Shown in pieces: positions 1 through 34,663 of a DNA stretch of 35,682 nt. Position numbers and translations under genes: made by a program. Position 1 is the first letter of the stretch; the number at the start of each line of letters is the position of its first letter. The notes beneath the pieces are model-generated. The model was given only the letters and a program-made list of their open reading frames with translations. It searched no databases and was not told the origin of the DNA. Source of the DNA: Bacillota bacterium (GTDB lineage Bacteria; Bacillota; DTU030; DUMP01); NCBI GenBank assembly GCA_012839445.1, contig DUNI01000236.1, positions 1 through 35,682 of the forward strand. Direction: 5' to 3'.

Positions 1-98
1 CCTGGCGGAACCGTTCCTTTTCTGAATTTACTTAGGGGACATTTTGTCAGTCCAAATGAGCATGTTTTGGGGTGACATTTTCACTGTCCCTTGACACA
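1..98. repeat. Repeat region resembling a transposable-element terminus (IS21-like or dispersed repeat), overlapping the 3' end of polC
   Basis: On the minus strand two related units, GGGACAGTGAAAATGTCACCCC (69-90) and GGACTGACAAAATGTCCCC (35-53), are spaced about 35 nt apart, preceded by TGTGTCAA (91-98) and followed by GGAACGGTTCC (about 10-20). Multiple short direct repeats beginning with TG are typical of IS21-family ends. No transposase lies in the window. Confidence 0.5.
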
Positions 99-3000
99 GC
101 TTTTTTACTAAATAAATTAAGTTGGTCGTCAACCGGTAAATGGTTAAGGCATCCAGCCTCTTGCAGTATCGATATCAGTGTCCGAGATAGACGCCCACGC
201 TGACGTAAGTCTTCCTGGGAAGAAAATGGACGCTCAGCTCGAGCCGCCACAATATTCTCTGCTGCCGTCTCACCTAATCCTGGTACACTCACTAGCGGCG
301 GTAGCAATCCTCTATCAGTAATTAAAAACCTAGTTGGATGCGAGTGATCAATGTTAAGAGGCGTAAAACGCAACCCACGAGCAAACATTTCTCGTACTAC
401 TTCCAAGACCGTAAGTAAGCCCTTTTCTTTCACAGAAGCATCGTTACCTTTAGCCTCTAATTCTGAGATATAAGCTTTTACATATTCCGGCCCTTTTAAA
501 ACAATTTCTAAATCAAAATCATCTACACGTGCCGAAAAATAACTGGCGTAAAAAGCTTTCGGATAATAAACTTTGAAATAAGCAATACGAAAAGCCATCA
601 TTACATATGCGGCCGCATGAGCTTTAGGAAACATGTATTTTATTTTTAGGCACGAGTCTATATACCACTCGGGCACATCATTTTCTCTCATCAAGGTTTC
701 CATCTCGGCAGTAAGCCCTTTACCTTTACGCACAGACTCCATAATCTTAAATGCCCAGGATGCATCTAAGCCTTGTTTAATCAGAAATAACATAATGTCG
801 TCACGCGTACAAATGACTTCAGGCAATGTAGCTTGTCCGGTACGTATCAAGTCTTGGGCATTATTGAGCCAAACATTTGTTCCGTGCGATAAACCCGAGA
901 TCCTGACTAGTTCACTAAATGTTTTTGGCTTAGTGTCCACCAACATCTGACGCACGAACCGGGTACCGAACTCCGGTAAACCTAAGGTGCCTACTTCGGT
1001 TCCAATCTCCTCAGGTGTCACACCAAGAGCAGTGACCCCAGAAAATAGTCCCATAGTAGTGGCATCGCCAAGCGGTACCGAGCGCGGATTTACACCTGTC
1101 ATTTCCTCAAGCATTTTTAGAACTGTAGGATCTTCATGACCGAGAAGATCTAATTTTAATAGCCGATCGCTGATGGAATGGTAATCAAAATGGGTGGTCC
1201 TCACATCACTCTTAGTATTAGCTGGGTATTGCACTGGTGTGAAATCCAAAACATCTCGGTCAGCCGGAACAATCATTAGTCCTCCCGGATGTTGACCGGT
1301 AGTACGGCGCACTCCACAAAGTCCCGCCACCAGACGATCTATTTGCGCCCGCCGAAGTCTCAGGCCACGAGAGTCGCCGTAAGCCTTTACAAAACCGTAG
1401 GCTGTGCGCTCAGCAATTGTAGAGATAGTACCAGCACGAAAAACATGATCGCGACCAAAAAGATGTTCTGTATAGCGATGGATCTGTGCCTGATATTCAC
1501 CTGAAAAGTTAAGATCAATGTCCGGCACCTTATCACCCTCGAAACCAAGAAACGTCTCAAACGGTATGTCTTGGCCATCTTTTAATAAAGTAGTACCACA
1601 ATGTGGACAATCTTTGGCCGGAAGATCATAGCCCGAGCCAACAGTCCCTTCTGTAACGAAATCACTGTAACGACACTTTGGACAACGGTAATGTGGTGGC
1701 AACGGATTTACTTCAGTTATTCCACACAAGGTAGCCACCAAAGATGACCCTACTGAACCTCGTGAACCTACTAAGTAACCATCTTCCAATGACTTATTTA
1801 CTAACCGGTGTGCAATAAGGTAGATAACAGCATAGCCATTATTAATGATTGAATCTAGTTCCTTATCCAAACGCTTGGCCACCAGATCAGGTAAGGGCAC
1901 ACCATAAAGTTCCTCAGCCTGTTCTCTGGCCATTTGCTCAATTTTCGTTCCAGCACCGGAAATATGAGGTGCCGAGAGTTCACTAGGCACCGGTTGCACA
2001 TCTTCTACCAATTCAGCTATACTCGCTGGCCCTTCAACCACCACCTGATAAGCCACTTCCTCACCTAGGTAGTTGAACTCTTCCAGCATTTCTGCAGTGG
2101 TCTTAAAATATAACGGCGGCTGAAGATCCGCATCACTATACTTTTGTCCGGCCAGTAAAATCCGACGCAGGATCTCATCGTTAGGATTAAGGAAATGGAC
2201 ATCACCGGTGGCTACCACCGGGCGCCCCAAATTCTTACCCAAGTTTACCAGAGATCTGTTGATATCCAATAGTTGTTCTTCGTTAAGTCTACCTTCTCGA
2301 ACCAAGAAAGCATTATTACCTCGTGGTTGGATCTCGAGAAAATCATAGAAACTGGCCCGGTGCCGGAGCTCTTCTTCTGGGGCGTCATGCAAAATAGCTT
2401 GAAACACTTCGCCAGCTTCACAGGCCGACCCTAATATGAGACCTTCACGGTGCTGCTCTATCAAAGAGCGCGGTAACCTAGGTACCCGGTGAAAATATTT
2501 GAGATGGGACAGGGTAACTAAACTGTACAGGTTTTTGAGTCCTGTCTGGTTCTTAACCAAAATGATAATATGGTACACTGGTGCTTTATCTCGTAGCGGA
2601 TCGCTTTCGTCATCCACTAGATAACCTTCCATCCCGTATATTACCTTAATGCCGTAACGGTGGCCTAGTTCATATGCTTCCGGAAAGGCTTGCACTGAAC
2701 CATGGTCAGTAATGGCCACAGCCCGATGCCCCCATTTGGCTATCAGCTGAAATAGATCCTTGAGCCGGGTAGTGGCATCGAGCGAGCTCATCTGAGTATG
2801 TAGGTGAAGTTCTATCCGCTTATCTTCCGCCGTGTCCTGGCGCATTTTGGGCGTTATTATCTCAATTGCTCGCGCCCAGACAATCTCTTCACCGGCAAAG
2901 CGATCAAAGGTCAGCTCCCCTTTTACCCGAAGCCAAGTCCCCACACCAACAGCTTCAGCCGCCTGTTCTTCTGTTGCTTTGCGAAGCAAGGTTTTTACCG

Positions 3001-3781
3001 TAACAGCATCGCCCTCATCGGCTAAATCAAAAACAAGTAGTGTCTTGCCTTTTTTGGTCTTTCGGATTTCCCACTTGGTAACATGTCCTTCAACTAACAC
3101 CTTGCTTCCTAGTTCCTCTAAAGATGTAATGGGTTGAACGGTACCTGTGATAGTTTCGCCAACTACTATGCAGTTGGTAACTGATTTTTGCTGTGGCTTT
3201 TCATCGATTTCTTCTAAGTACTGGCGTAGTTCCTTATCCTTGGCCGCTTCGATTTCCGCTTCGGTTTCAAGGGCCATGGTTTCATCATAATCTACCATCA
3301 CAGCAATTCCATTATAACCATTGGCGGCCCAAAAGCATTGTATTGCTCTATCGATTCTTTTAGCCTTTACCAGATGGGCCGTGAATTCATTGCCCAAAGT
3401 GATTTTCAAAATCCCATCGTTTAACTCAAAATATGCCTTTTCCAGCCAAGGTTCCAAAAAAGGAAACTCTGTGCTTAGGGTCGCAATCGTAGCCATCCAT
3501 AAATCCGACGGAGCCAGTGTCTTATCATGTCGGCTTAACTGCTCCACAGTTACTGCCGGTCTCGTGCTAGTGCACTCAGCAATACGTTGCTCGATAGTCT
3601 TGATTGTTGAAAGTGGCAACAATGTACTGGTGTCAACAACAATGTTCCAGTGCTGTCCAGTGGCTGAAACCTCCACTTCTTTAAGTCGCGTATCTTGAAG
3701 CCAAGCTTTAATATCTGATGGCAACTGCAACTTGTTAATCAGATAACTCCAGGAGTCATTGGTATTAACTTTAGTGCTCAT
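47..3781 (-). CDS. polC: DNA polymerase III alpha subunit, PolC type, lacking the internal DEDD exonuclease domain
   Basis: 1244 aa. OB fold, PHP (IELHLHTQMSSLDATT, AITDHGSVQAFPEAY), zinc motif (RCPKCRYSDF...CPHCGTTL), palm (PDIDLNFSGEYQ; LKLDLLGHEDPTVLKML) and the clamp motif QLNLF near the C-terminus. YLVDD joins directly to YHIIILVKNQTGLKNLYSLVTLSH, with no DVETTGL-type exonuclease. Confidence 0.96.
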   Translation of the reverse strand: MSTKVNTNDSWSYLINKLQLPSDIKAWLQDTRLKEVEVSATGQHWNIVVDTSTLLPLSTIKTIEQRIAECTSTRPAVTVEQLSRHDKTLAPSDLWMATIATLSTEFPFLEPWLEKAYFELNDGILKITLGNEFTAHLVKAKRIDRAIQCFWAANGYNGIAVMVDYDETMALETEAEIEAAKDKELRQYLEEIDEKPQQKSVTNCIVVGETITGTVQPITSLEELGSKVLVEGHVTKWEIRKTKKGKTLLVFDLADEGDAVTVKTLLRKATEEQAAEAVGVGTWLRVKGELTFDRFAGEEIVWARAIEIITPKMRQDTAEDKRIELHLHTQMSSLDATTRLKDLFQLIAKWGHRAVAITDHGSVQAFPEAYELGHRYGIKVIYGMEGYLVDDESDPLRDKAPVYHIIILVKNQTGLKNLYSLVTLSHLKYFHRVPRLPRSLIEQHREGLILGSACEAGEVFQAILHDAPEEELRHRASFYDFLEIQPRGNNAFLVREGRLNEEQLLDINRSLVNLGKNLGRPVVATGDVHFLNPNDEILRRILLAGQKYSDADLQPPLYFKTTAEMLEEFNYLGEEVAYQVVVEGPASIAELVEDVQPVPSELSAPHISGAGTKIEQMAREQAEELYGVPLPDLVAKRLDKELDSIINNGYAVIYLIAHRLVNKSLEDGYLVGSRGSVGSSLVATLCGITEVNPLPPHYRCPKCRYSDFVTEGTVGSGYDLPAKDCPHCGTTLLKDGQDIPFETFLGFEGDKVPDIDLNFSGEYQAQIHRYTEHLFGRDHVFRAGTISTIAERTAYGFVKAYGDSRGLRLRRAQIDRLVAGLCGVRRTTGQHPGGLMIVPADRDVLDFTPVQYPANTKSDVRTTHFDYHSISDRLLKLDLLGHEDPTVLKMLEEMTGVNPRSVPLGDATTMGLFSGVTALGVTPEEIGTEVGTLGLPEFGTRFVRQMLVDTKPKTFSELVRISGLSHGTNVWLNNAQDLIRTGQATLPEVICTRDDIMLFLIKQGLDASWAFKIMESVRKGKGLTAEMETLMRENDVPEWYIDSCLKIKYMFPKAHAAAYVMMAFRIAYFKVYYPKAFYASYFSARVDDFDLEIVLKGPEYVKAYISELEAKGNDASVKEKGLLTVLEVVREMFARGLRFTPLNIDHSHPTRFLITDRGLLPPLVSVPGLGETAAENIVAARAERPFSSQEDLRQRGRLSRTLISILQEAGCLNHLPVDDQLNLFSKKAVSRDSENVTPKHAHLD

Positions 3782-4427
3782 CGCTGGTCACTCCATGCAC
3801 GCCTTCTAGTTGAGCTAATTGTGCTAGCACGTGATCTAAGGACACTGGCGGTGGCAACTTTAGTGTAAGCCACACTGCTAGCCGTCCACTTGCCGACTCT
3901 TCTTCTATCTGCACATCTTTGATGCTCACAGTTAGCCGACCTAAACACTGACACACCTGGCCCAACCGTCCTGGTTTATCTTCTAAATTCAACCGCACAG
4001 CCCTTCGTTCCGGTCTGATAAAAGGAACCAAGTTCTCCAAGCGCGACAACGGGCCAAGGGCAATTACCGCCAATATAACAGTAAGGCCAGCCCCTAGAAA
4101 AAACCCGGCACCGCAGGCTAATCCGATGGTTGCCACCACCCATAAACTGGCAGCCGTGGTTAGGCCGCGGACGGTAAAACCTTCTCTTAATATGCTGCCG
4201 GCACCAAGAAATCCTACTCCACTCACCACTTGTGCACCTAATCGAGCAGGATCAGCCCCAGGTATGGCTTGCGATAAAGACATAACCAGGGCTGAACCAA
4301 CACAGACCAAAGTATGGGTACGAAAGCCGGCAGGACGATGAGCGCTCTCCCGCTCCAGTCCCACCACTGCTCCTAATATAAACGCGGTCCCTAACCGTAT
4401 TACCAAATTAAATTCAGCATTTATCAT
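3771..4427 (-). CDS. MgtC/SapB family membrane protein with C-terminal ACT-like domain
   Basis: RLGTAFILGAVVGLERESAHRPAGFRTHTLVCVGSALVM is the MgtC/SapB signature. C-terminal LEDKPGRLGQVCQCLGRL is ACT-like. 3' end overlaps polC by 11 nt. Confidence 0.9.
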   Translation of the reverse strand: MINAEFNLVIRLGTAFILGAVVGLERESAHRPAGFRTHTLVCVGSALVMSLSQAIPGADPARLGAQVVSGVGFLGAGSILREGFTVRGLTTAASLWVVATIGLACGAGFFLGAGLTVILAVIALGPLSRLENLVPFIRPERRAVRLNLEDKPGRLGQVCQCLGRLTVSIKDVQIEEESASGRLAVWLTLKLPPPVSLDHVLAQLAQLEGVHGVTSDEH

Positions 4428-5077
4428 TTATTTCGACTCCGTGGTAATTTTAGACTGGAAATAATCTCATGATACATTTTGAGCCGTGCACCAAAGCCTT
4501 TAGCCAAACCAAGTTTCTCTTCTTTCATTACATGGGTAACATCATGCCAAGGTACATGCACTACAGCAATATCTTGTTCGTGCACATACTGGGTTAGTGC
4601 CACTTCCACCCCAAAACGACTGACGTCTAATTCCGGTATACTCTCTAGTAAATCACGTTTAACGGCTCGCTGGCCAGAAAGAAAGGGGGCTATCTTCTGT
4701 GCCAGATCAGTGGCCAAACGCCCCTGAGCAAACACAGCTACTGCCATAAGTGTACCACCTGTCAGCACCGGCCGCAGTAAACCCCTAACATGTTTTGGTG
4801 TGAGGCCTACCAGATCGGCGTCCAGAAATACCAACGCAGTTGCCTTAGTGGCGTGGACACCGGCTAAAAGAGCAGCTCCTTTGCCTTGGTTAGATGAAAG
4901 CTCCAATACCTTAACCTTTGGCCCAGCTTTTCTGGCTACCTCAGCCGTGCCATCGGTCGAGCCATCGCTGACTACAATAATTTCTGCTATTTCGTCTACA
5001 GCACAAACAGCGGATAATACATCCCCTATGCGCTCTGCTTCATTGTATGCGGGAATAACAGCTGCTACAAACTCCAT
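4424..5077 (-). CDS. Glycosyltransferase family 2 protein
   Basis: AAVIPAYNEAERIGDVL, VVSDGSTDGTAEVA, FLDADL (DxD). ATGA overlap with mgtC. Confidence 0.88.
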   Translation of the reverse strand: MEFVAAVIPAYNEAERIGDVLSAVCAVDEIAEIIVVSDGSTDGTAEVARKAGPKVKVLELSSNQGKGAALLAGVHATKATALVFLDADLVGLTPKHVRGLLRPVLTGGTLMAVAVFAQGRLATDLAQKIAPFLSGQRAVKRDLLESIPELDVSRFGVEVALTQYVHEQDIAVVHVPWHDVTHVMKEEKLGLAKGFGARLKMYHEIISSLKLPRSRNK

Positions 5078-5093: not shown

Positions 5094-6836
5094 TTACAGT
5101 TGCCGCTGTGGTTGATGGGCCATTAGTTCCGACTGTACTTTGGCCACAACTTCTGTCTTATCCACCAGCCAAGTGGTACCGTCGGCCCTTAACCGTATTT
5201 CGACCTTGTTTTCCTTCAAAGAACGCGGTCCCACGGTAATACGCAGCGGGAAACCCATGAGGTCAGAATCCTTAAACTTAACTCCGGCTCGTTCATCGCG
5301 GTCATCGATAATCACTTCTATGCCTGCTGCTGTAAGTTGGTGATACAGTTCTTCAGCCCATTCTCGCTGCTCATCATTATTATAATTTACCGGCACAATA
5401 GATACGTGATAAGGAGCAATAGGAACAGGCCAAATAATTCCGTCTTCATCGTTAGACTGCTCTACTGCAGCTGCCATGGTACGGGGGATGCCAATGCCAT
5501 ATGAACCCATAATTATATATTGGGCTTGACCGTTTTCATCTAAATAAGTGGCATTTAGTGCCGAGCTGTATTTTGTTCCCAGCTTGAAAATATGCCCTAC
5601 TTCAATTCCTCGTGTGGTATCAAGAGGAGCATTACAGTGAGGGCAGGGATCGCCTGCAACCACATTTTTCAGATCCAGCACCTTAGCAGCTTTCCAGTCA
5701 CGCTCGTAATTTGAATTGATGAAGTGGGCATCTATTTCATTGGCCCCAACCACGGCATTTGCAATAACTGTCACTTCCGGGTCGGCTAAAATAGGCACGT
5801 CCTCTAGTCCTATAGGTCCAGCAAAGCCCACAGGAGCACCTGTTATCTCTTCTACAGCTACAGCATCTGCCAGCTCCACCTCTAATGCATCCAATGCATT
5901 CTTTAATTTAATTTCGTTTACATCGCGATCTCCTCTAACTGCTACTGCTACCATCTCTTGACGCTCACGGTAAGTAATTCGGTAAATAAGAGTTTTCACT
6001 AACTTGGTAGCGTCAACCCCAAGAAAACCGGTAACATCCTCAATGCTATGCTTATCAGGCGTAGACACTTTCTGAATGGGCAGTTGCTGCTCATCGGATT
6101 CATTCTTAATTGTCGCATCCGAAGCAACGGCTCGCTCCAAGTTAGCAGCGTACCCACAAGAATTGCAATAAGCTATAACACTCTCTCCAGTATCAGCCAG
6201 CACAGTGAATTCGTGTGATCCAGTTCCGCCGATAGCACCGCTGTCAGCTTCTACGGCTTTAAATGTTAGGCCGCACCGGGTAAATATTCGTCGGTAAGCC
6301 TCATACATAGCCTGGTAACTGTCCTCAAGACCCTCTTCATCCCGGTCAAAACTGTAAAGATCCTTCATGATAAATTCACGGCAGCGGATAAGGCCTAATC
6401 GAGGCCGAATTTCATCCCTAGCCTTGGTTTGTATTTGATACAACCGTTTGGGCAAATCTCGCCAAGAATTAATCTCCCCGCGCACTAAAACCGTTATGAC
6501 TTCCTCGTGCGTGGGGCCTAGACAAAAATCACGCTCATGACGATCCTTAAGACGAAACAGTTCCTTTCCATAGACATCCCAACGACCTGATTCTTGCCAG
6601 ATTTCAGCTGGTTGCAAAGCCGGTAGCAACACCTCTTGCCCTCCGGCCCGGTCCATTTCTTCCCGTACTATCCCCTCAATTTTGCGTAGTACCCGCCAAG
6701 CCAAAGGTAGGTAGCAATATACCCCAGCAGCTGTTTTTCTTATGTACCCTGCGCGCAGCAGATATTGATGGCTAATTACCTCAGCCTCTGCAGGCACTTC
6801 TCGCAATGTAGGCGCAAATAGTCTCGACATACGCAT
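5094..6836 (-). CDS. proS: Prolyl-tRNA synthetase (bacterial type with INS editing domain)
   Basis: MRMSRLFAPTLREVPAEAEVISHQYLLRAGYIRKTAAGVYCYLPLAWRVLRKIE; GPTHEEVIT; C-terminal anticodon-binding domain. The start at 6836 is preferred over the track start at 6857 because AGGGGG lies about 9 nt upstream of it. Confidence 0.96.
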   Translation of the reverse strand: MRMSRLFAPTLREVPAEAEVISHQYLLRAGYIRKTAAGVYCYLPLAWRVLRKIEGIVREEMDRAGGQEVLLPALQPAEIWQESGRWDVYGKELFRLKDRHERDFCLGPTHEEVITVLVRGEINSWRDLPKRLYQIQTKARDEIRPRLGLIRCREFIMKDLYSFDRDEEGLEDSYQAMYEAYRRIFTRCGLTFKAVEADSGAIGGTGSHEFTVLADTGESVIAYCNSCGYAANLERAVASDATIKNESDEQQLPIQKVSTPDKHSIEDVTGFLGVDATKLVKTLIYRITYRERQEMVAVAVRGDRDVNEIKLKNALDALEVELADAVAVEEITGAPVGFAGPIGLEDVPILADPEVTVIANAVVGANEIDAHFINSNYERDWKAAKVLDLKNVVAGDPCPHCNAPLDTTRGIEVGHIFKLGTKYSSALNATYLDENGQAQYIIMGSYGIGIPRTMAAAVEQSNDEDGIIWPVPIAPYHVSIVPVNYNNDEQREWAEELYHQLTAAGIEVIIDDRDERAGVKFKDSDLMGFPLRITVGPRSLKENKVEIRLRADGTTWLVDKTEVVAKVQSELMAHQPQRQL

Positions 6837-6869
6837 AATGGAAATCCCCCTATACATCTAGTTTATTAC

Positions 6870-14400: not shown

Positions 14401-15003
14401 TCATTCTAGCATTTCTCCAAGACGAAAACGGACAAAACGGCGTATAACCATATTCTCACCAATGCGAGCCATTTTTTCTGTTAGTAAGTCACTGACTTTC
14501 TTGTCTGGGTCCTTGATAAACGGTTGTTCTAATAGGCAATTCTCGCTATAGAACTTCGCTATCCGGCCCTCAACAATTTTGTCCGCAATTTTTTCGGGCT
14601 TACCTTCGTTTAGAGCCTGCGCACGAAGGATCTCCTTTTCCTTGACCAAGACTTCTTCCGGAACATCTTCCTTGGACAAGTATAGAGGATTGGTAGCAGC
14701 TACCTGCATAGCAACGTCTCTGGCAAACTCCTGAAATTCCTCTGTACGAGCAACAAAGTCGGTCTCACAATTAACCTCTACCAGAACACCCAGCTTGCTA
14801 CCTAAGTGAATATATGATTCAATAATCCCCTCGGCTGCTGTCCGTCCAGCACGCTTGGAAGCTGCTGCTAATCCTTTTTCTCTTAGGTGTTCCACAGCCT
14901 TGTCCATGTCACCGTCTGCTTCTTGTAAAGCACGCTTGCAATCCATCATACCGGCACCGGTTTTTGTTCTTAGTTCTTTTACCATTTTGGCAGTAACCGC
15001 CAC
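14401..15003 (-). CDS. tsf: Elongation factor Ts
   Basis: [53 protein letters not shown] start with GGGAGG upstream. Confidence 0.97.
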
Positions 15004-16738: not shown

Positions 16739-17551
16739 TCATCTCACCTGCCCTGCCGCTCGTTTTTTCTTCTTTGTTAATCGTTCAGCCAATTCAAGTT
16801 CTTCACTGTAGCAAAGCAGGTGGCCTCTTAATCTCAGCAATGAACGAGTGTGTAGTTGAGAAATCCTGGATTCAGTTACACCTATGATCTCGGCAATTTC
16901 CTTGATATTAAGGTCTTCATAATAATATAGCGACACTACCAATTGCTCTCTTTCCGGTAGGGATTGCACTGCCTGTGCTAAAAGCTCCCGTTTTTCCGTT
17001 TCTTCCAAAGCCTTTATAGGATCTCCCTCTTGAGTGGCAATTTTCATGCCTAAAGGTACTTGCTCACCATCCTCGGTCGCTTTCAAGGGAGCATCAAGAG
17101 ATAGGAAAGTAGCCTGACTGATCTGGCATTCCAACTCGTGTAATTCCTTAAGCTCTATTCCTAGTTCAGCACTTACTTCAATATCTGTTGCCGGACGCCC
17201 GAAACGTCGTTCTAAGGTGCCATACGCTTGAGCTATCTCCCGTTCGCGTTGGCGTAACGAACGAGGTGCCCAATCTGCTGCTCTAAGGCTGTCTAAAATG
17301 GCTCCCCTAATGCGAGTGGTGGCAAAGGTCTCGAACTTTACTCCCCGCTCCGGTTCAAACCGTTCAATGGCTGTCAGTAAGCCAAAAACTCCATTCCCAA
17401 CTAAATCGTCATAATCCACATGAGCTGGCAGTAACAGCCGCAACCGGCCGGCCACATGTTTCACTAGCGAGGCATATTGCCCCACTATTTTTTCCCAGGC
17501 CGCACGATCCTGATTTTTTTTATATCGGCCCCAAAGTTCATTCATATCCAT
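16739..17551 (-). CDS. sigD: Flagellar sigma factor, FliA/WhiG/SigD family
   Basis: YDDLVGNGVFGLLTAIERFEPERGVKFETFATTRIRGAILDSLRAADWAPRSLRQR; region 4 ESRISQLHTRSLLRLR. Confidence 0.95.
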   Translation of the reverse strand: MDMNELWGRYKKNQDRAAWEKIVGQYASLVKHVAGRLRLLLPAHVDYDDLVGNGVFGLLTAIERFEPERGVKFETFATTRIRGAILDSLRAADWAPRSLRQREREIAQAYGTLERRFGRPATDIEVSAELGIELKELHELECQISQATFLSLDAPLKATEDGEQVPLGMKIATQEGDPIKALEETEKRELLAQAVQSLPEREQLVVSLYYYEDLNIKEIAEIIGVTESRISQLHTRSLLRLRGHLLCYSEELELAERLTKKKKRAAGQVR

Positions 17552-17614
17552 AGGGCCACCACCTCCTGCGAGCCATGCTGTTTTAATTGACTCTACCGAC
17601 TTTGTTACCGTTTA

Positions 17615-18097
17615 CTACAGAATCTTTTCCCCACGAGCAATAGTCCTTACCAAGAACTCACCTGTTCCGGTATCCAATTCTACTGTGCGCCCCCAATTAC
17701 CACCAGTATCTTTAGCCAACACGGGAATTCGTGCATTTTCCAACCATTGTAATATGGCTACAGCGTTTCTCTCACCAATCCGCATAGTCTCAGTGGGTCG
17801 ATCCAGTCTAAACATCTGAGCTCCGCCTGCTAATTTTGCTGTAAGACGCCGGTGTACTGCTCCGCATTCCTGCATTTTCGTTACCAATAGTGGCAAAGCT
17901 GTGTCGGCAAACTTAGCAGGATTAGAAACGAATGGCCCATTTGACTTAGGCAACATTATGTGTGCTAAGCCTCCTACTTTAGCTCTTTGATCATAAAGAG
18001 CCACCCCAACACAAGAGCCCAATCCTATGGTAACCAATTTCATGGGTGAAGAGGCCACCGCCAAGTCCGCCATTCCCACCCGGCGTATTTCCTTCAC
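17615..18097 (-). CDS. cheD: Chemoreceptor glutamine deamidase CheD
   Basis: TIGLGSCVGVALYD (catalytic Cys), GLAHIMLP (His), KLAGGAQMF. Confidence 0.95.
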   Translation of the reverse strand: MKEIRRVGMADLAVASSPMKLVTIGLGSCVGVALYDQRAKVGGLAHIMLPKSNGPFVSNPAKFADTALPLLVTKMQECGAVHRRLTAKLAGGAQMFRLDRPTETMRIGERNAVAILQWLENARIPVLAKDTGGNWGRTVELDTGTGEFLVRTIARGEKIL

Positions 18098-18708
18098 TCA
18101 AAGCCCACCCCCAGGGCAGCAAAAATGGCTTTTAGGGCATCCGGTTTTGGTACCAAGAAAAAGTAACTATAAATATCCCGGCCTAAAGCTAAAAATTCAG
18201 TCTCGATAAGCAATACCTGGTCTGCCACTTGGCCAAACTCCGCCAATACATAATCCAAAACGGCTCCAGCCATATCAACCGCCATTGCCGGCACCATAGG
18301 AACAAACGTCAGGCCGGTAAAAGCACTAAGAGAAGTTAAGTACGATCCCGCCAAAATATTGCCCACTTCTTTTAGAGCCGACATGCCTATTTCATCCATG
18401 ACGTTAGAGCTGCCTTGTGGCCGATCAAAAAGTATGTCTAACAAAAAGCAGGCTTGCTCTAACGGAAATACTACTAAAATAGTTGCCGGAGCCTGGCTGT
18501 CTATGTCTAAAAGAATTCCGGCCACAGGATTTTCCGGTCCGCCCAAACGAGTAGCCACTTCATCCAAGGGCAACCACATTACAGCCGGTACTTGCATATT
18601 TATCTGTTGGCCAAGCAAGTCTGCCAAAGCTGTAGCAGCATTCCCAGCCCCTATGTTACCCACTTCCTTTAGGACATCAAGATGCATTTCGGACCATTCT
18701 TGACCCAC
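18094..18708 (-). CDS. cheC: CheY-P phosphatase CheC
   Basis: Two ExxN motifs: LDVLKEVGNIGAGNAATAL and MSALKEVGNILAGSYLTSL. Confidence 0.94.
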   Translation of the reverse strand: MGQEWSEMHLDVLKEVGNIGAGNAATALADLLGQQINMQVPAVMWLPLDEVATRLGGPENPVAGILLDIDSQAPATILVVFPLEQACFLLDILFDRPQGSSNVMDEIGMSALKEVGNILAGSYLTSLSAFTGLTFVPMVPAMAVDMAGAVLDYVLAEFGQVADQVLLIETEFLALGRDIYSYFFLVPKPDALKAIFAALGVGFE

Positions 18709-18710
18709 TT

Positions 18711-19193
18711 CTATACACCTTCCTGTACCGCTTTCTGAGTCACTTCCTTTGTCGCTGCCACTTCATCAAGACCAAGAATTCGATCCATGTTAAGGAGAAT
18801 AAGGAGCCTGTCTTCTAACTTACCAATAGCTTCAATGAAACTGGCCTCAATGCCGGCAACTAACGGTGGTGGAGGTGCGAAAGCATCCGCTTCCAGCGTT
18901 ATTACTTCTGATACAGCATCCACGGTAATGCCTACTGTTATGTCCTGCACGTTCACAATCACTATCCGGCTTTCATCGGTAACTTCGGCCGCCTTTAGAC
19001 TAAAGCGCTTGTGTAGGTCGATAACGGGAATAACATTCCCCCGCAGATTAATGACGCCTTCCACAAAATCTGGCGCATTGGGCACTCTAGTGATTTCAGT
19101 AAGTCGTTTAATTTCTTGAACCTGCAAAATATCTACTCCGTATTCTTCTTGTCCCAAACTAAACACCACAAGTTGCCTTTCTTTTTGTGGCAT
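18711..19193 (-). CDS. cheW: Chemotaxis coupling protein CheW
   Basis: LVVFSLGQEEYGVDILQVQEIKR, VINLRGNVIPVIDLHKRF. Confidence 0.96.
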   Translation of the reverse strand: MPQKERQLVVFSLGQEEYGVDILQVQEIKRLTEITRVPNAPDFVEGVINLRGNVIPVIDLHKRFSLKAAEVTDESRIVIVNVQDITVGITVDAVSEVITLEADAFAPPPPLVAGIEASFIEAIGKLEDRLLILLNMDRILGLDEVAATKEVTQKAVQEGV

Positions 19194-19259
19194 TGTTGAC
19201 CCTCCTCATCTTTGACCTCTAATTCATCCTAGATCTGACTACTCAAAACATATACAGAT

Positions 19260-21293
19260 TTACCGATAAGGTGGTGATGCCTGTTTGGCTGGGTTCCATT
19301 GGCGTTTTTCAGCCAGATTAATTATCCCGGCAGGGTCAATGATTAGAGCCACTCGCCCATCACCCAAGATAGTTGCTCCGCCAACACCAGGTAGGCTTCC
19401 GATGAACCGGCCTAAAGACTTAATCACAATCTCTCGCTGTCCTAGTAAATCATCTACAATCAGCCCAGCCCTACTGCCATCACCTCGTACAACTACCACT
19501 GGTAACTCCTTTGCCGGTTGATTGTTTTTATTGCAGTCGAGCAGCGATCCCAGCCGTACTAAAGGTACAACCTCACCCCTCAATACCATTACTTCCCTAG
19601 CCCGCACCCTCTTAATTTCCTCTTTTTGCAGAACCTGGATTTCTTCCACTGTTTCTAAGGGTAAGGCATACATTTCTGATCCTAACTCAACCATCAAAGC
19701 TTGGATGATAGCCAACGTGAGCGGCAATCGGATGCTAAAACGCGTGCCCTGGCCAATACTACTAGTCACTTCCACATTTCCGCCTAATGACTCGATTTTG
19801 CTTCGTACCACATCTAGTCCAACGCCGCGACCTGACACATCGCTAACAGCCGAAGAAGTAGAAAAACCAGGTAAAAAGAGCAAGCGATAAACCTCATCGT
19901 CGCTTAACCTTTGCGCTTGCTCAGCAGTAATCAATTCTCTTTCTCGCGCCTGGGCTAGTATTTTCTCAGGATCGATACCTTCACCATCATCTTCCACAGC
20001 AATAACGACGTTATTCCCCTCGTAACCGGCACTAAGTCGCACTCTGCCTTCAGCTGGCTTGCCTTTGTTCTGCCTGTCTGCAGACGATTCCACGCCATGG
20101 TCAATGGCGTTGCGCAATAAGTGCACCAACGGATCTCCAATCTCATCAATGACGCTTCGGTCAAGCTCTGTTTCCTCACCTTCAATAGTAAACTCTACTT
20201 GTCGCCCCAGTTCGCGGGTCAAATCCCGCACCATACGAGGAAACCGGTTGAACACTTGAGCTAGCGGTACCATGCGCGCTTTCATTACAGCGTCCTGTAA
20301 TCCGCCTGCTACCCGCGACAGAGATTGTAACGTCTCTTCAATATCGGGCGAACTGTGTACCATAAGAAGCTGCTCCAAGCGGGTCTTTGTAATCACAAGC
20401 TCACCTACAAGATTCATCAAGCTGTCCAAGCGGTGGATATCAATGCGAACCGTCTGGGTAGTTAAGTGTCGAAAGCTTTTTTTCACTGCCGGTGTACTTG
20501 GACCGGTCGTGGCCTTGCTCTTTTTGTCGTCCTTAGCATTTACTGCTACAACTTCCGCTGCCACCACATCGCTAACTTCATTAATAAGAGTCTGGATCGC
20601 TTGCTTACTTAGCTCTGAGATGTAAAGTAAGCGGAAACTGTCCTTGAATTTTTCCTCTTCCAAATCCTCAACAGGAGGCTCAGCCCGTAAAATCTCGCCC
20701 TCAGCTTGCAGTCGTTGGAAAATTAGAAACACCCGAACAGCCTTCATCAAACAATTAGGGGACAGTCGTACCGTAACAAAGTAGGCACGATAACCACGTG
20801 CCCAGGCCTCATCTACCACCTGAAGCTCGTGCTCTTTTAATTCATCACTACTTAATGGCTTTGCCGTCGATATTATTCCCTCTGAATTAACCGGCTGTTG
20901 ATTTTCGCCAGCAGTCCAACTATTAAGTTCTGCCAGTAGATTGGCAATTGACTCCTCTGCTGGCTCTGTCCCTGCCTGTGCATGGCCTAAGATACTCTCC
21001 AGAGCGTCAACTCCCTTAAACAACAAATCTGACAGCTGTGGAGAGAGCTGAAGTGCTCCGGAACGCATGTTATCAAGCACATTCTCCAAGTTATGAGTAA
21101 GCATGGTAGTGGTGTTAAATCCCATAGTGGCTGCCATGCCTTTAATGGTATGAGCAGCTCGAAAGACCAGGTTTATAGCATCTTGGTCATCAGGATCTTG
21201 CTCCAGAGCAAGAAGTCCATCATTTAGAGCCTGCAAATGCTCTTGGGCCTCAGCAAAAAATACTTCTTGATATCGTGACATGTCGTTTGTCAT
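19260..21293 (-). CDS. cheA: Chemotaxis histidine kinase CheA
   Basis: Hpt FRAAHTIKGMAATMGF, dimerisation domain, HLLRNAIDHGVES, EDDGEGID, GRGVGLDVVRSKIESLGG, CheW-like C-terminus. ATG at 21293 has a GGGGAG SD; the track start at 21323 is likely too early. Confidence 0.96.
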   Translation of the reverse strand: MTNDMSRYQEVFFAEAQEHLQALNDGLLALEQDPDDQDAINLVFRAAHTIKGMAATMGFNTTTMLTHNLENVLDNMRSGALQLSPQLSDLLFKGVDALESILGHAQAGTEPAEESIANLLAELNSWTAGENQQPVNSEGIISTAKPLSSDELKEHELQVVDEAWARGYRAYFVTVRLSPNCLMKAVRVFLIFQRLQAEGEILRAEPPVEDLEEEKFKDSFRLLYISELSKQAIQTLINEVSDVVAAEVVAVNAKDDKKSKATTGPSTPAVKKSFRHLTTQTVRIDIHRLDSLMNLVGELVITKTRLEQLLMVHSSPDIEETLQSLSRVAGGLQDAVMKARMVPLAQVFNRFPRMVRDLTRELGRQVEFTIEGEETELDRSVIDEIGDPLVHLLRNAIDHGVESSADRQNKGKPAEGRVRLSAGYEGNNVVIAVEDDGEGIDPEKILAQARERELITAEQAQRLSDDEVYRLLFLPGFSTSSAVSDVSGRGVGLDVVRSKIESLGGNVEVTSSIGQGTRFSIRLPLTLAIIQALMVELGSEMYALPLETVEEIQVLQKEEIKRVRAREVMVLRGEVVPLVRLGSLLDCNKNNQPAKELPVVVVRGDGSRAGLIVDDLLGQREIVIKSLGRFIGSLPGVGGATILGDGRVALIIDPAGIINLAEKRQWNPAKQASPPYR

Positions 21294-21331
21294 AAGCTTC
21301 TCCCCTTCTATTCGTGTACCCATTGTTGTAC

Positions 21332-21919
21332 TTACGGGGTCAGCACTGCCTCAGTTATGGCAGCGGGAATATCTGCTAGCGATACCATTTTTTCAACAGC
21401 ACCGCGTTCCCAAGCAGCCCTGGGCATACCAAACACCGTTGATGTAGCAGCATCCTGCCCTATAGTTACCCCCGCGGCTTGGCGGATTTTGAGCAATCCC
21501 TCAGCCCCATCACTGCCCATCCCGGTAAGAATAACCCCTATGCCCCGCTTCCCACAGGAATCCGCCACGGAAGCAAATAATGGATCTGCTGCCGGGCAAT
21601 GACCTCCAACTGGTGCGTCCTTACTCAATGTTACCTGCCATCTTACTGGAGACTCGTCTGTCGTTTGAACCAATAGGTGAACGTTAGGGGGCGCTATGGC
21701 AACAATCCCAGGCTCAAGAATTAGTCCGTCTGTTGCCACTTGGACTTGAAAACTTACCCCTTTAGCCAAATGTTCGGCAAAATATGTTACAAACTCCGGG
21801 AGCAAATGCTGAACTACCACATAGGCAGCCGGAAGCTGAGCTGATAATCCACGGAAAATATAGCTTAAAGCCTGCGGTCCACCAGTAGATGCGGCTAATG
21901 CCACTATTTTCATCATCAT
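21332..21919 (-). CDS. cheB: CheB methylesterase catalytic domain protein lacking the N-terminal receiver
   Basis: 195 aa starting at KIVALAASTGGPQAL. Catalytic Ser (ASTGGP), His (VQHL) and Asp (GMGSDGAEG) present. No receiver encoded upstream. Confidence 0.93.
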   Translation of the reverse strand: MMMKIVALAASTGGPQALSYIFRGLSAQLPAAYVVVQHLLPEFVTYFAEHLAKGVSFQVQVATDGLILEPGIVAIAPPNVHLLVQTTDESPVRWQVTLSKDAPVGGHCPAADPLFASVADSCGKRGIGVILTGMGSDGAEGLLKIRQAAGVTIGQDAATSTVFGMPRAAWERGAVEKMVSLADIPAAITEAVLTP

Positions 21920-22554
21920 AACAATCCTCGACGGCGTAATTCCCGTTGGCGCTCAAAAATAAACGCCATGATTTTGTCCTGATCAGCTTGAGTAATCTCA
22001 ACAAACTCAACTGCTAGGCGCACTTTTTCTAACCCTTGTTCTATATGCTCTACGCGTCTAACCTGGGCTCGACACCTTACCTTTTTCGGTAAGTCAATTT
22101 CCATTTCCAGCCATGTTCCTGGCTTCAGATCTCTAGGATAGACAAGTAACACTCCGCCACCACTAAGGTCCACTGTATGTGTTTTCACCTCTGTACCTGT
22201 AGGTTTGGAAAGAAGGCCACCAGTCAGCTCCCAAACCATAACCGGTACACTAGCCTCTAAACGAACGAATGCCCGTTTTTGCTCTTTGATAAAAACCCGT
22301 GGACGCTGTACTACTAGCAAAGGATGTGGGAATAGGCGACGCGATAACACTTCAGTTACAAACATCAGTGGCCACGCATAAACGCGAATCTTGTCACCTC
22401 GATTAAACAAGATTAACCTGCCATGATGCATGGGAGTGGCTAGGCTGATAGTGTCACCTTCCATGGCAGCTATGTAAGACGTGTAAAACTTACTATTTTG
22501 ATCAGACTCTTTTTGAATGGTAACTTTTTGATTGAGCTTTAGCTTAGACCCCAT
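21916..22554 (-). CDS. YcgR-like flagellar brake / PilZ-domain c-di-GMP binding protein
   Basis: RxxxR motif (EQKRAFVRLEASVPV) and DLSGGG motif. N-terminal YcgR-type barrel. Start 22554 assumed from the upstream AGGAGG. Confidence 0.88.
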   Translation of the reverse strand: MGSKLKLNQKVTIQKESDQNSKFYTSYIAAMEGDTISLATPMHHGRLILFNRGDKIRVYAWPLMFVTEVLSRRLFPHPLLVVQRPRVFIKEQKRAFVRLEASVPVMVWELTGGLLSKPTGTEVKTHTVDLSGGGVLLVYPRDLKPGTWLEMEIDLPKKVRCRAQVRRVEHIEQGLEKVRLAVEFVEITQADQDKIMAFIFERQRELRRRGLL

Positions 22555-22569
22555 GTAGCAGTACACCTC

Positions 22570-23430
22570 CTAACGAAACAAGGAACGCAGCCGGCCCAAA
22601 AAACCCCTCAACCCACTGCCATAAACTGACGGGCATACAGTACCTGCTAAAGAAGCTGCAATCACTCGTAGTTGCTCTGCCGCCGGAGCCGACGGAAACG
22701 ATAGTAATAAAGGTTGCTGGCGATGTACAGCACTTCTGAGCAACCGATCTTCCGGTATATAGCCTAAAGGATTAACAGTAACCGATAAGAAATCCTTTGC
22801 TACCCGACAAAAGTTAGAAGTCACCTGTTGAGCCTCTTTCTTATTTGAAGCACGATTAACCACCAAATGCAGAGTTAAGTTAGCATTTTTTCGAGTAAGG
22901 ACTTTAATCAAAGCATAAGCATCAGTTAAAGCAGTGGGCTCAGGCGTAGTTACCACTACTACTTCCTGTGCCGCTAAGGCCACACTGGTCACTTTAGGTG
23001 AAATCCCTGCTCCCGTATCAATAAGAAAAAAATCACTGTCTATCTGAGCGGCATCATGAAATAGATATAAGAGTTCACTATCTGGCAAAGTTGCCAGCTC
23101 CTCTAAGCCACTTCCGCCAGCCACTACCTTTACTCCGTAAGCACAATGTACAATATCAATCAAGCTGCATTCGCGCTGTACCACCTGTCCTAAAGTATAC
23201 GGCGGCGTAATACCGAGCACCACATCTAAATTGGCTAGTCCAAGATCGGCATCCAAAAGAGTGACTGCGTACCCCTGTTCATGAAGTGCTAAAGCTAAAT
23301 TGGCCGCTATATTGGTCTTACCCACCCCACCTTTGCCACTGGTAATGGCAATAGTCCGTTTCTTGCGGCGCCGTTCCCATTCCTGCACTAATTGGCGCAG
23401 CCGCTGCGCCTGATCAGGCATGGTTGGCAC
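22570..23430 (-). CDS. flhG: MinD/ParA-like ATPase FlhG (FleN/YlxH)
   Basis: N-terminal DQAQRLRQLV (FlhF-activating motif); TIAITSGKGGVGKTNIAANLALAL. Confidence 0.94.
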   Translation of the reverse strand: MPTMPDQAQRLRQLVQEWERRRKKRTIAITSGKGGVGKTNIAANLALALHEQGYAVTLLDADLGLANLDVVLGITPPYTLGQVVQRECSLIDIVHCAYGVKVVAGGSGLEELATLPDSELLYLFHDAAQIDSDFFLIDTGAGISPKVTSVALAAQEVVVVTTPEPTALTDAYALIKVLTRKNANLTLHLVVNRASNKKEAQQVTSNFCRVAKDFLSVTVNPLGYIPEDRLLRSAVHRQQPLLLSFPSAPAAEQLRVIAASLAGTVCPSVYGSGLRGFLGRLRSLFR

Positions 23431-24511
23431 CTCCCAAAATCAAGTTTGCCAGCAAATTTGGGTTAGCTGCTTTTAGGTCATCGGGAACATTTTGCCCGTT
23501 GGCAATAAACCCCACTGGTACCTGCATTAGATTCACTAAACTCAAGAGGGTACCTGCACTTTCAGTCTCATCTATCTTGGTAAAAACCACCTGGCACGGT
23601 GAGAAGATGCGAAATCGCTCGTAAATTAACTCTAAGTCTTCTGCTTTAGTGGTGGCACTAACCACCAAAGCAGTTTGAAGGTCGGGAATACTGGCTAATA
23701 GGTTTCTTAGTTCTGCCAAATGCAATCCCTGCTGAGGACTGCGACCGGCTGTATCCACCAAAATAACTTCTGCTTCTTTGTATTGGTCAAGTGCCGACTG
23801 TAAATCATCGGCTGTATAGACAACCGCCAAAGGAACATGCAAGATATTGGCATAACGTCGTAGCTGTTCAACCGCTGCAATACGATAGGTATCGGTAGTA
23901 ATAAGAGCTACTTTTTTCCCTTGCTGCAAACTATACACAGCGGCTAATTTTGCAACGGTAGTGGTTTTTCCTACTCCCGTAGGTCCCACAAATGCTATCA
24001 CGGGTCCAGTTAGACCCCCGCACTTTTGCGGTGGGAAAAACCCCATTACTACTTTTTTAATACTCTGAGTTAGTGCCTGGCTATTGCCTAACTCTTCGGC
24101 GGGTATGGTAGCCAGGGCCTGTTCCACTATGTTTCGTGCCAAGTCCACCTCTACACCACGATTTATCAAGCGTTCGGTATGATGACGAGCCAAGTTGTAA
24201 GGCACACGAAGGCGTTCTGGCATCAGCTCTTCTTCTACAACTGGAGATGCAAGCGGATTGGTGCGCCTAATACGTTGTACCGCCGGAACCGGCACCTGCT
24301 GAGTTATTGATGCCTGACGCAAAGGAACAGCCGGCGTCGGTGGTTGGGCCACAGCCGCCGTAACCTCAATACGTCGACGTTTTAGCCAACCCCAGAAGCC
24401 CGGTGCACGTATTCGCCGTACTTCTAAAATAATTGCATCGCGGCCTAAATCTCTTTTTACGCGATCTACCGCTTCTTCCAAGGTAGAAGCGACATAGCGC
24501 CTGATCTTCAT
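23414..24511 (-). CDS. flhF: Flagellar SRP-type GTPase FlhF
   Basis: MKIRRYVASTLEEAVDRVKRDLGRDAIIL; VIAFVGPTGVGKTTTVAKLAA; DTAGRSPQQ. Confidence 0.96.
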   Translation of the reverse strand: MKIRRYVASTLEEAVDRVKRDLGRDAIILEVRRIRAPGFWGWLKRRRIEVTAAVAQPPTPAVPLRQASITQQVPVPAVQRIRRTNPLASPVVEEELMPERLRVPYNLARHHTERLINRGVEVDLARNIVEQALATIPAEELGNSQALTQSIKKVVMGFFPPQKCGGLTGPVIAFVGPTGVGKTTTVAKLAAVYSLQQGKKVALITTDTYRIAAVEQLRRYANILHVPLAVVYTADDLQSALDQYKEAEVILVDTAGRSPQQGLHLAELRNLLASIPDLQTALVVSATTKAEDLELIYERFRIFSPCQVVFTKIDETESAGTLLSLVNLMQVPVGFIANGQNVPDDLKAANPNLLANLILGGANHA

Positions 24512-26574
24512 TTTAAGCTCACCCTTCCCAACACATCTACAGTCAAATCAGGATCCAACTCATTGTAGGAGACAACAACTAACTGGGGAAAGGCTCGCTC
24601 TACCAAGCGTTTAAAGTAGAAACGAACCAAGGGAGAAGCCAACACCACCGGTGGCCCTTGCCCTGGTGGAATTCGTTTAAGCTCTTCCTTTAGCGAAGCC
24701 AAAATGTGTTCTGCTACCTGGGGTTCCATAGCCAAAAACGTCCCTTGCTCTGTTTGCTGTAGGCTTTTTTCCACTGCTTCCTCTATTGATCGATCTAAAG
24801 TGAGAGCTTGCACTGGCCTCCCTTCAGGAGAAAGACTACGGGAAATCTGCCGTCCTAAGGACTGGCGTACGTACTCCGTAAGGGTATCCGTGTCTTTGGT
24901 TAAGCGACCATAATTGCCCACTGTCTCCAAAATAGTTGTCAGATCACGAACAGAAACACCTTCGTGAAGCAAGTTCCCTAAAATCTTTTTTAGATCTAAC
25001 GGGGCTATTATTCCCGGTACCACCTCGTTAACTAAAGCAGGGTTTTCCTTACGCGTAGTCTCTAGCATTATCTCCAGTTGCTGACGACTTAGAATTTCTG
25101 CTGCATGTTTCTTGATTACCTCCGTCAAGTGGGTAGCCAAGACTGTAGCTGGATCCACTACTGTAAAACCTTCCCGTTCTGCTTTCTCTTTTTCTGCAGC
25201 AGTAACCCACCAAGCCGGAAGACCAAATGCAGGTTCGCGAGTAGGAATACCCGGTTCTTTTGTACCGGTAAGTTCCCCCATAGCCAGATAGTAACCAGGA
25301 AGCACTTCCCCACGCGCGACTTCCGCACCTCGAAGTAAAATAATATACGTGTTCGGCGCCAAAGCTATGTTGTCACGAATCCGTACAGTAGGCACCAGCA
25401 AACCCAGTTCCAATGCCAGCTGTCGCCGTAACAATACCACCCGATCTAACAAGTCGCCACCCTGCTCAGCATCAGCCAATCCAATTAAACCATACCCTAA
25501 ATCAATTTCCAGTGGATCCAAAGGCAACAACGCTGCCACTGCCTCTGGCCGCCGTAACTCCTCAAGTCCTCTGTCGGGAACAACAACCTGCTCTGCCGGC
25601 ACTGTAGTAGCAGCTTGACTTAAACGATATCCCAAAAAAGCAAATAGTGCCGCCAAGGCCAGAAACGCAACATGCGGTAACCCGGGTATCAGACCTAACA
25701 CAGCCAGAAGACTGGCTGCCAAATATAGAATTCTCGGTTCACTAAAAACCTGGCCGGTTAAATCTTGTCCCAGATTTCCAGCGGAAGCAGCCCGAGTTAC
25801 TAAAATACCGGTGGCAGTAGAAACCAGTAACGCCGGAATCTGGCTTACAAGACCATCACCCACAGTAAGAATCGTATACTTTTGTAATACCTGAAGCGGT
25901 TCCAGCTGGCCTTGCATTACCCCGATAATAAAGCCGCCAATAATATTTACTATGGTAATAATTATACCTGCTATAGCATCGCCTTTTACAAATTTACTGG
26001 CACCGTCCATAGCACCATAAAAGTCTGCTTCCCGTCGCACTTCCTGGCGCCGCGACCGAGCTTCTTCTTCATCGATAAGGCCGGCATTTAAATCGGCATC
26101 TATGCTCATTTGTTTACCTGGCATTGCATCCAGGGTAAAACGTGCTGCTACTTCCGCCACCCGTTCTGCACCTCGTGTTATAACTACAAACTGAATAATA
26201 ATAAGGATAATGAAAACGATAAAACCTACTACCGCATTACCACCAACAACAAATTGTCCAAATGCTTGAACCACCCGTCCAGCGTACCCATGAAGTAAGA
26301 TAAGCCGAGTGGAGGAAACATTAAGGGCTAATCGAAACAAAGTTGCCAACAGTAATAGTGAAGGAAAAACAGAGATCTCTAATGGATGCTGTACATACAT
26401 GGTAACTAACAGTACAGTGAGGGCAAAGGTAATATTAAAGGTAAGCAAGAGATCTAATATGAACGTAGGCAGCGGTACTATCATCATTAGAACAACGGCG
26501 ACAACTGCCACTGCCACTCCCAGGTCGCTATAATTTACGCCCCGGGCTGAGGCTGTGCCCTCCACCTGAAACAT
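24508..26574 (-). CDS. flhA: Flagellar biosynthesis protein FlhA
   Basis: SVFPSLLLLATLFRLALNVSSTRLIL, RFTLDAMPGKQMSIDADLNAGLI, GDAIAGIIITIVNIIGG. Confidence 0.98.
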   Translation of the reverse strand: MFQVEGTASARGVNYSDLGVAVAVVAVVLMMIVPLPTFILDLLLTFNITFALTVLLVTMYVQHPLEISVFPSLLLLATLFRLALNVSSTRLILLHGYAGRVVQAFGQFVVGGNAVVGFIVFIILIIIQFVVITRGAERVAEVAARFTLDAMPGKQMSIDADLNAGLIDEEEARSRRQEVRREADFYGAMDGASKFVKGDAIAGIIITIVNIIGGFIIGVMQGQLEPLQVLQKYTILTVGDGLVSQIPALLVSTATGILVTRAASAGNLGQDLTGQVFSEPRILYLAASLLAVLGLIPGLPHVAFLALAALFAFLGYRLSQAATTVPAEQVVVPDRGLEELRRPEAVAALLPLDPLEIDLGYGLIGLADAEQGGDLLDRVVLLRRQLALELGLLVPTVRIRDNIALAPNTYIILLRGAEVARGEVLPGYYLAMGELTGTKEPGIPTREPAFGLPAWWVTAAEKEKAEREGFTVVDPATVLATHLTEVIKKHAAEILSRQQLEIMLETTRKENPALVNEVVPGIIAPLDLKKILGNLLHEGVSVRDLTTILETVGNYGRLTKDTDTLTEYVRQSLGRQISRSLSPEGRPVQALTLDRSIEEAVEKSLQQTEQGTFLAMEPQVAEHILASLKEELKRIPPGQGPPVVLASPLVRFYFKRLVERAFPQLVVVSYNELDPDLTVDVLGRVSLK

Positions 26575-26592
26575 TCTAGTTACTCCTTTCGC

Positions 26593-27711
26593 TTAGATTA
26601 GTCCCCGCTGGCGATATACATAGGCCAACACTTCGGCCACTGCTTGATAAAAAGAAGCCGGAATATCATCGCCCACTTCCACTGCACGAAATAATGACTG
26701 GGTCAAAGGCTTATTTTCGACCAATAGCACTGCATGCTGTCGGGCAATTTCCTTAATCCGTTCAGCGATCAAACCAGCTCCTTTAGCTACTACCTTTGGG
26801 GCCGACATGGTAGCAGCATCGTACTTAAGAGCAATGGCATAATGGGTTGGGTTAGTGATTACTACATCAGCTTGAGGAATTTGGTGCATCATGCGCGCAC
26901 GAGCTATCTGCTGTTGTCGTTCCCGTATATGCGCTCTTAATTCTGGACTGCCTTCCATTTGTTTAAACTCTTCCTTGATTTCCGGGATCGACATCCGCAA
27001 GCTCTTCTCATATTCCCAACGCTGGTAAGCATAATCAGCCACTGATAGCAGTAAAATAACAGCTCCACACTGCCATAGTAATCGCCAAACTAAAGTGCCT
27101 AGAGTAGCCATGTAGCCTGTCACACCAACAAGGGGAAGCCGTGGAATCAAGTCGTACTCTTTACTTAAACTCTTGTACGCCACAGCCGCGACTAAGCACA
27201 ATTTTAGGATACTTTTCGCTAAATTAGCTACAGATCGCCGTGAAAAGATACGCTGGAAGCCAGCGATGGGGTTAAGCCGGTCTAATCTAAAAGTCAACGG
27301 TTCCATGCTAAAGACAAAGCCCACCTGGGCCAAATTAGCGGCCAATCCAGCTACTACAGCAACACAAAATAGTGGTGCCATCAAACGCAGAAAGTCGATC
27401 ACGACCATAATTCCTAGTTGATTAGCAAAAGCCATATCAAAATTCTGATGGTCCAGCATGTACAATGTACGGGTTAGGGTCGTGATTTTATCTCGCCACC
27501 ATGGGATTAACCAAAAAGCTATGCTGCCAGCAGCCAGGAGATTTATTGCCGCCGTGAACTCAACACTGTGAAACACTTGGCCCTTTCGACGAGCTTCCTG
27601 CCGTCGGTGAGGAGTCGCCGGTTCCGTTTTTTCTTCTCCGGCAAAAAGCTGCAGATTTATATTGTGGGGTACAATCTTATCACGGTGGCATGAGAGTAAG
27701 AATGATATCAA
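26593..27711 (-). CDS. flhB: Flagellar biosynthesis protein FlhB
   Basis: GEEKTEPATPHRRQEARRKGQV; autocleavage NPTH (VVITNPTHYAIALKYD). Probable TTG start at 27711 with GGAGGTG upstream. Confidence 0.96.
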   Translation of the reverse strand: MISFLLSCHRDKIVPHNINLQLFAGEEKTEPATPHRRQEARRKGQVFHSVEFTAAINLLAAGSIAFWLIPWWRDKITTLTRTLYMLDHQNFDMAFANQLGIMVVIDFLRLMAPLFCVAVVAGLAANLAQVGFVFSMEPLTFRLDRLNPIAGFQRIFSRRSVANLAKSILKLCLVAAVAYKSLSKEYDLIPRLPLVGVTGYMATLGTLVWRLLWQCGAVILLLSVADYAYQRWEYEKSLRMSIPEIKEEFKQMEGSPELRAHIRERQQQIARARMMHQIPQADVVITNPTHYAIALKYDAATMSAPKVVAKGAGLIAERIKEIARQHAVLLVENKPLTQSLFRAVEVGDDIPASFYQAVAEVLAYVYRQRGLI

Positions 27712-28462: not shown

Positions 28463-28470
28463 GTTGTATC

Positions 28471-28740
28471 CTACTGCAGCACTGTGGGTATCACAGACAC
28501 AAGACGTACCGTAAAGTCACGCATTATCTTAAGCATCCACGGGCCAAAAATCACTAACCCTAGAAAAACAGTCACTATTTTGGGTACAAAAGACAGGGTC
28601 TGTTCTTGAATTTGAGTGGTAGCCTGAAAAATACTGACTAAAAGACCCACAGAAAGACTTAGCAAAAGTAAGGGCCCAGCCACCAATAACGCTGTATATA
28701 ATGCATCGCGTCCTAGGCTAAGAACAAATTCTTCACTCAT
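28471..28740 (-). CDS. fliQ: Flagellar biosynthesis protein FliQ
   Basis: 89 aa; GLLVSIFQATTQIQEQTLSFVPKI. Confidence 0.96.
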   Translation of the reverse strand: MSEEFVLSLGRDALYTALLVAGPLLLLSLSVGLLVSIFQATTQIQEQTLSFVPKIVTVFLGLVIFGPWMLKIMRDFTVRLVSVIPTVLQ

Positions 28741-28760
28741 ACACTACACTCCGTTTCTTC

Positions 28761-30100: not shown

Positions 30101-30113
30101 GTTATAAGACCCC

Positions 30114-30476: not shown

Positions 30477-30494
30477 TTTCTTAACCTCCCGCTC

Positions 30495-32598: not shown

Positions 32599-32611
32599 GG
32601 TATCACCTTCC

Positions 32612-34648: not shown

Positions 34649-34663
34649 CCTCACACCTCCATT

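Follow-up and report, generated by a model that had tools for sequence, protein, structure and literature searches.

Loss of the DnaQ-like exonuclease insert from PolC in a Bacillota lineage and the PHP active site as its probable replacement in proofreading

The polC gene at the start of the window (the whole stretch of 35,682 nucleotides that was analysed) raises the question of whether a replicative polymerase has lost its proofreading exonuclease (exo) and, if so, what proofreads in its place. An earlier note on this DNA had read the gene as a PolC without the exo domain, with all other parts of the enzyme present in one frame of 1244 aa. The ORF was identified as PolC by NCBIfam, scoring 1570 bits against a cut-off of 873 for NF001688 and 1411 bits against a cut-off of 1043 for the PolC equivalog TIGR01405. 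The profile search placed NI, NII and a weak OB match in that order before the PHP domain, and the catalytic and CxxC columns of the polymerase core were invariant in alignment A1. The beta-clamp binding motif (Table 1) can be compared with the PolC consensus QL[S/D]LF (PMC3919608). These domain matches and the clamp motif agree with the earlier reading of an otherwise complete frame, and the motifs and coordinates given there were correct.

Table 1. Positions of polC, its parts and its upstream neighbour in the window
Feature	Position	Strand	Extent or role	Basis and details
polC	47..3781	minus	1244 aa from ATG	NF001688/TIGR01405 above cut-off; exo-less across family and class
PolC N-terminal domains NI and NII	3182..3742	minus	residues 14-200	PF14480, PF11490
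OB domain	2894..3100	minus	residues 228-296	PF01336 E=0.00099, under curated cut-off; aligned with G. kaustophilus PolC
PHP domain, first part	2609..2812	minus	residues 324-391	PF02811; ligands H326, H328, D335, H360, E385
Exo-loss junction, 9-residue loop ESDPLRDKA	2582..2608	minus	replaces ~195-209-aa exonuclease insert	108-PolC alignment; model
PHP domain, second part	2192..2581	minus	from residue 401	ligands H404, C454, D527, H529
Polymerase core: zinc-finger cysteines, fingers, (HhH)2	134..1945	minus	residues 613-1216	PF07733, PF17657, PF14579
Beta-clamp binding motif QLNLF	110..124	minus	residues 1220-1224	sequence; Q and F invariant in alignment A1
proS	5094..6857	minus	upstream neighbour of polC	NF006625/TIGR00409

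The surroundings of the gene are conventional: the window reads frr-uppS-cdsA-(ytvI)-dxr-rseP-ispG-proS-(GT2, mgtC)-polC and so keeps the usual proS-polC order, and in a single-contig genome of the same family (G003) polC is presumably followed by rimP- and nusA-like ORFs. Between proS and polC, which are usually adjacent, lie a glycosyltransferase family 2 gene and an MgtC/SapB-ACT gene (3771-5077, minus strand), and the MgtC-like gene overlaps polC by 11 bases. Elsewhere in the window, EF-Ts (tsf; 14401-15003, minus strand) has 200 aa and was matched in two stretches to a model of 293 positions. Directly upstream of rpsB-tsf-pyrH stands a large flagellar export, switch and chemotaxis cluster (16739-35682, minus strand) that includes FlgE-like, FliM, FliY-like CheC-FliMN, FliP, FliR, FlhB, FlhA, CheA, CheC, CheD and sigma-28 genes.

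At the site where an ordinary PolC carries a DnaQ-like exonuclease of ~205 aa, the window PolC has only the nine-residue loop; the earlier note had counted a linker of 11 residues at the same junction, and the difference is one of boundary placement alone. When the protein was aligned with full-length E. faecium PolC (PDB 9QPC), the alignment stopped at window residue 394 and chain residue 434 and restarted at 397 and 635, leaving ~200 residues of the chain without a counterpart. A hidden DEDD domain elsewhere in the ORF was rejected, as the profile search gave no RNase_T/DEDD match there at E<=1. We then compared the stretch from YLVDD to PVYH in 108 aligned PolCs, drawn from 80 GTDB genomes and 40 relatives: there were 39 exo-less sequences, with a stretch of 3-30 aa, and 68 exo-bearing ones, with 195-209 aa; the 108th is a contig-edge fragment with 128 aa in this stretch that falls outside both classes. 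Residues 205-1225 were modelled with AlphaFold2 (mean pLDDT 87, pTM 0.75), and at the junction the model links two PHP strands through a short loop. The top structural match of the model was the exo-deleted crystal form of G. kaustophilus PolC (TM 0.86), followed by 9QPC (TM-score 0.87 over the query), in which the exo sits between the third and fourth PHP strands (PMC12592400).

With 254 contigs in the assembly, of which the window is one, assembly or annotation might have dropped an in-frame segment of polC; this can be dismissed with near certainty, because the short loop recurs wherever the junction is readable in relatives from the window family and class, a single-contig genome among them, as well as in many unrelated assemblies. 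A second polC was not found in the window genome, which is 92% complete. None of the three findings that the earlier note had named as contrary to its view, namely a DEDD domain elsewhere in the ORF, a second polC or a dropped segment, came to light. The window lineage has thus lost the DnaQ-like insert cleanly and in frame from a polymerase that is otherwise complete and is the regular chromosomal PolC of a bacterium of clostridial type.

The earlier note had left open whether exo-less PolCs were already catalogued, and they were. Timinskas et al. 2014 found that 6% of PolCs, and 16% of those in PolC+DnaE1 systems, are without Exo; all were from Clostridia and Negativicutes, save one extra Thermotogae copy (PMC3919608). 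To assess their frequency in the phylum, we took an even draw of 150 genomes with a requested completeness of >=95% and classified their PolCs by frame length and span of match. PolC was present in 114 genomes (36 gave no PolC match): 65 were exo-less, 46 had the long insert and 3 were unclassified because of contig ends, so that exo-less forms account for 65/111 classifiable PolCs. An RNase_T match lay inside the polC frame in 45 of the 46 long-insert genomes, the exception being G131. The exo-less PolC is a kind on record since 2013, common and repeatedly evolved, and the window PolC belongs to it.

Core trees built without the insert imply 7-9 changes of exo status, up to 7 of which are forced by well-supported branches. 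A single clade of exo-bearing PolCs was rejected (AU p=3.7e-6). Exo and core identities/distances correlate with r=0.93, and the inserts are common in site and length. Because the exo-bearing PolCs do not form one clade and the exo and core distances track each other, several losses would fit best and be the simplest reading of these unrooted trees, with transfer of whole polC genes as a possible source of some changes.

Intermediate stages were found in genus g88. Within family f22, an intact exo was present in ten further genomes of five other genera (g26, g64, g132, g133 and g134). In g88, G131 (L160) and G169 (L161) hold an in-frame insert that aligns with the exo and has lost the catalytic residues: the DxE motif is gone (DIETTG has become ALATTG or ALGTTG), as are the HN..FD and HHRA..DDA motifs. 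A third member, G104 (L151), retains 30 aa at the exo site; outside this site its PolC shares 92% identity with that of G131. At E<=0.001 no RNase_T match came from any of these three g88 genomes, and each of their PolCs has an intact PHP. In the G131/G169 remnant pair, dN/dS was 0.36 for the insert, 0.13 for the PHP flanks and 0.10 for the core, compared with 0.09 for the exo, 0.07 for the flanks and 0.05 for the core in a control pair with intact exo; as single pairwise Nei-Gojobori estimates, these values are readable as relaxed constraint and no more. Genus g88 is thus a series of inactivation, decay and excision, with decay and excision side by side. An all-or-none pattern of exo loss fitted the first 68 exo-bearing sequences, but the degenerate inserts of G131 and G169 led us to drop this idea. 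Likewise, the earlier contrast of excision with decay stands for the window polC, where a domain was lost without decay of the gene, but it was drawn too sharply, given that the g88 exo decayed in frame before or during excision.

We next examined the PHP active site, taking the ligand columns in PolC from the table in PMC3666897. All nine metal-binding residues are present in the window PolC, and the same set (HHDHEHCDH) was found without exception in the 64 complete exo-less PolCs, as well as in the two PolCs with an exo remnant. The complete exo-bearing PolCs number 78: the full set is kept by 54 of them, and the other 24, all from Bacillales, have Asn at position 8. This Asp-to-Asn change occurs, among PolCs, only in exo-bearing ones, an association that comes from essentially one Bacillales clade and is not an independent-contrast test. 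A change in L146 lies at D359, the Asp of TDH, which is not a ligand; the true ligand is D335. Window D527 aligns with N743 of G. kaustophilus PolC, the Asn at position 8 in a PHP domain that is inactive (PMC3666897, PMC5636811), and M. tuberculosis DnaE1 is left without PHP exonuclease activity by the D226N substitution (PMC5636811). Judging from the order of the ligands, the Asp at position 8 of PolC would correspond to this D226.

The exo-less variant is marked by a co-occurring DnaE1 rather than DnaE3, and the window genome agrees: a DnaE1-like C-terminal half lies at the end of contig C182, and its neighbour, an ORF resembling pyruvate kinase, is the one seen in the single-contig genome of the same family; no N-terminal half of DnaE1 was recovered from the window genome. 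Possession of all nine PHP ligands is, within DnaE, a DnaE1 trait, and the DnaE1 proteins of 8 relatives keep all nine. The window family also has a second, shorter DnaE2-like polymerase (L122 in G003 and L123 on contig C167 of G000), and the PHP site of the G003 protein carries an Asp-to-Asn change; DnaE2 has been described as extremely rare in company with PolC.

What, then, proofreads for the exo-less PolC? Our main reading, to which we give a probability of roughly 0.7, is that the exo was lost in several lineages and that proofreading most likely falls to the PHP site of the same polypeptide, along with the PHP of DnaE1. The zinc-dependent PHP site of PolC would do the proofreading with help from the PHP site of the co-occurring DnaE1, and the DEDD exonuclease, made redundant, would be free to decay and then be deleted. 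PHP substitution is the best supported of the three consequences that the earlier note had considered, as neither the window PolC nor any other complete exo-less PolC that we examined has lost one of the nine ligands; its statement that the polymerase lacks proofreading in cis is probably wrong because PHP lies in the same chain. According to a 2026 survey, the proofreader that becomes inactivated in Pol III alpha subunits is PHP rather than DnaQ (PMC12926913).

Nevertheless, the role of the PolC PHP site as an active proofreader is inferred from its residues. Many exo-bearing clostridial PolCs also have an intact PHP, so intactness is no proof of use, and the ligands may be kept for fold stability instead. 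Some exo-less lineages do hold stand-alone DnaQ-like proteins, which counts against proofreading by PHP. We know of no PolC PHP domain shown to be an active exonuclease to date; the one tested, that of G. kaustophilus, was inactive but bears Asn. Proofreading by PHP alone has, as far as we are aware, been shown only for DnaE1. More broadly, we lean slightly towards the view that in many clostridial lineages the ancestral PolC PHP, rather than the DEDD exo, proofreads at the fork. Where PHP can take over, the DnaQ-like insert would have been repeatedly inactivated, decayed in frame and excised, and Bacillales would have made the reverse trade, losing the catalytic Asp of PHP and keeping the exo.

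A different, unlikely explanation is that DnaE1, with its own PHP intact, carries out bulk replication, so that PolC, as a minor polymerase without need of strong proofreading, lost its exo. Timinskas et al. raised this possibility for PolC+DnaE1 bacteria (PMC3919608), and both the intact DnaE1 PHP of the relatives and the sampled genomes of the phylum that gave no PolC match are in keeping with it. However, purifying selection on the core stays strong even in PolCs with a decayed exo (dN/dS about 0.08-0.10), the catalytic columns and those of the clamp motif do not vary, and the retention of the PolC PHP ligands in every complete exo-less case would be unexpected if PolC fidelity were unimportant.

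That a stand-alone DEDD (DnaQ-type) exonuclease binds the window PolC in trans, as the earlier note had suggested, is improbable. Some exo-less genomes do encode small RNase_T proteins, and stand-alone or helicase-sized RNase_T frames occur in exo-less lineages other than those that gave no match; their presence in only some exo-less lineages indicates that no single trans partner explains all. In contrast, no RNase_T match was found in the window genome, even at E<=10, or in seven of eight genomes of the window family, including a single-contig one. The same holds for an RNase_T-family exonuclease in 18/65 exo-less census genomes, four of them single contigs: G003 and three further ones, G027, G101 and G127. 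An RNase_H_2 (YprB-like) protein occurs in 5/6 lineage and comparison genomes searched, but also in B. subtilis, whose PolC bears the exo, and is missing from the exo-less G027; as a trans proofreader it was rejected as too widespread to be specific.

Very improbable, finally, is a PolC that goes unproofread in an organism that leans on mismatch repair or bears a high mutation rate. MutS is indeed present (864 aa), but in 6/6 genomes searched and most controls, so that it is nothing special; moreover, exo loss has lasted across whole families and classes, and no exo-less PolC has a degraded PHP site. The mutator lifestyle proposed earlier is thus not supported.

The genomes without any RNase_T exonuclease make it possible to ask, in a clean natural setting, whether PolC can be proofread by PHP alone, a matter that bears on replication fidelity in a group including gut commensals and on how essential enzymes lose domain insertions.

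Compared with known systems, the window PolC shares all other domains with the B. subtilis/E. faecium type (1157.9 bits to 9QPC), lacks its exo of ~200 aa between the third and fourth PHP strands and keeps the PHP Asp. In the engineered G. kaustophilus PolC (PDB 3F2B/3F2C/3F2D), the exo was taken out at the same site for crystallisation; unlike the window protein, it is man-made, has also lost the N-terminal domain, and has Asn as PHP ligand 8 and an inactive PHP. DnaE1 of Mycobacterium and Thermus, a DnaE form and not a PolC, has the same nine PHP metal ligands, and the proposed proofreading mode is alike, being demonstrated there and predicted from sequence for the window PolC. The exo-less PolCs of Timinskas et al. 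2014 (PMC3919608), known since 2013 without a mechanism, share with the window PolC the arrangement NTD-OB-PHP-Pol3-(HhH)2, the absence of an Exo insertion and a DnaE1 host, and the window PolC is no different in kind. To that record, our analysis adds further lineages and a series from decay to excision; it also shows that exo-less forms are more frequent in a sample drawn evenly across taxa, that their PHP site is retained in full and that some of their genomes are devoid of RNase_T.
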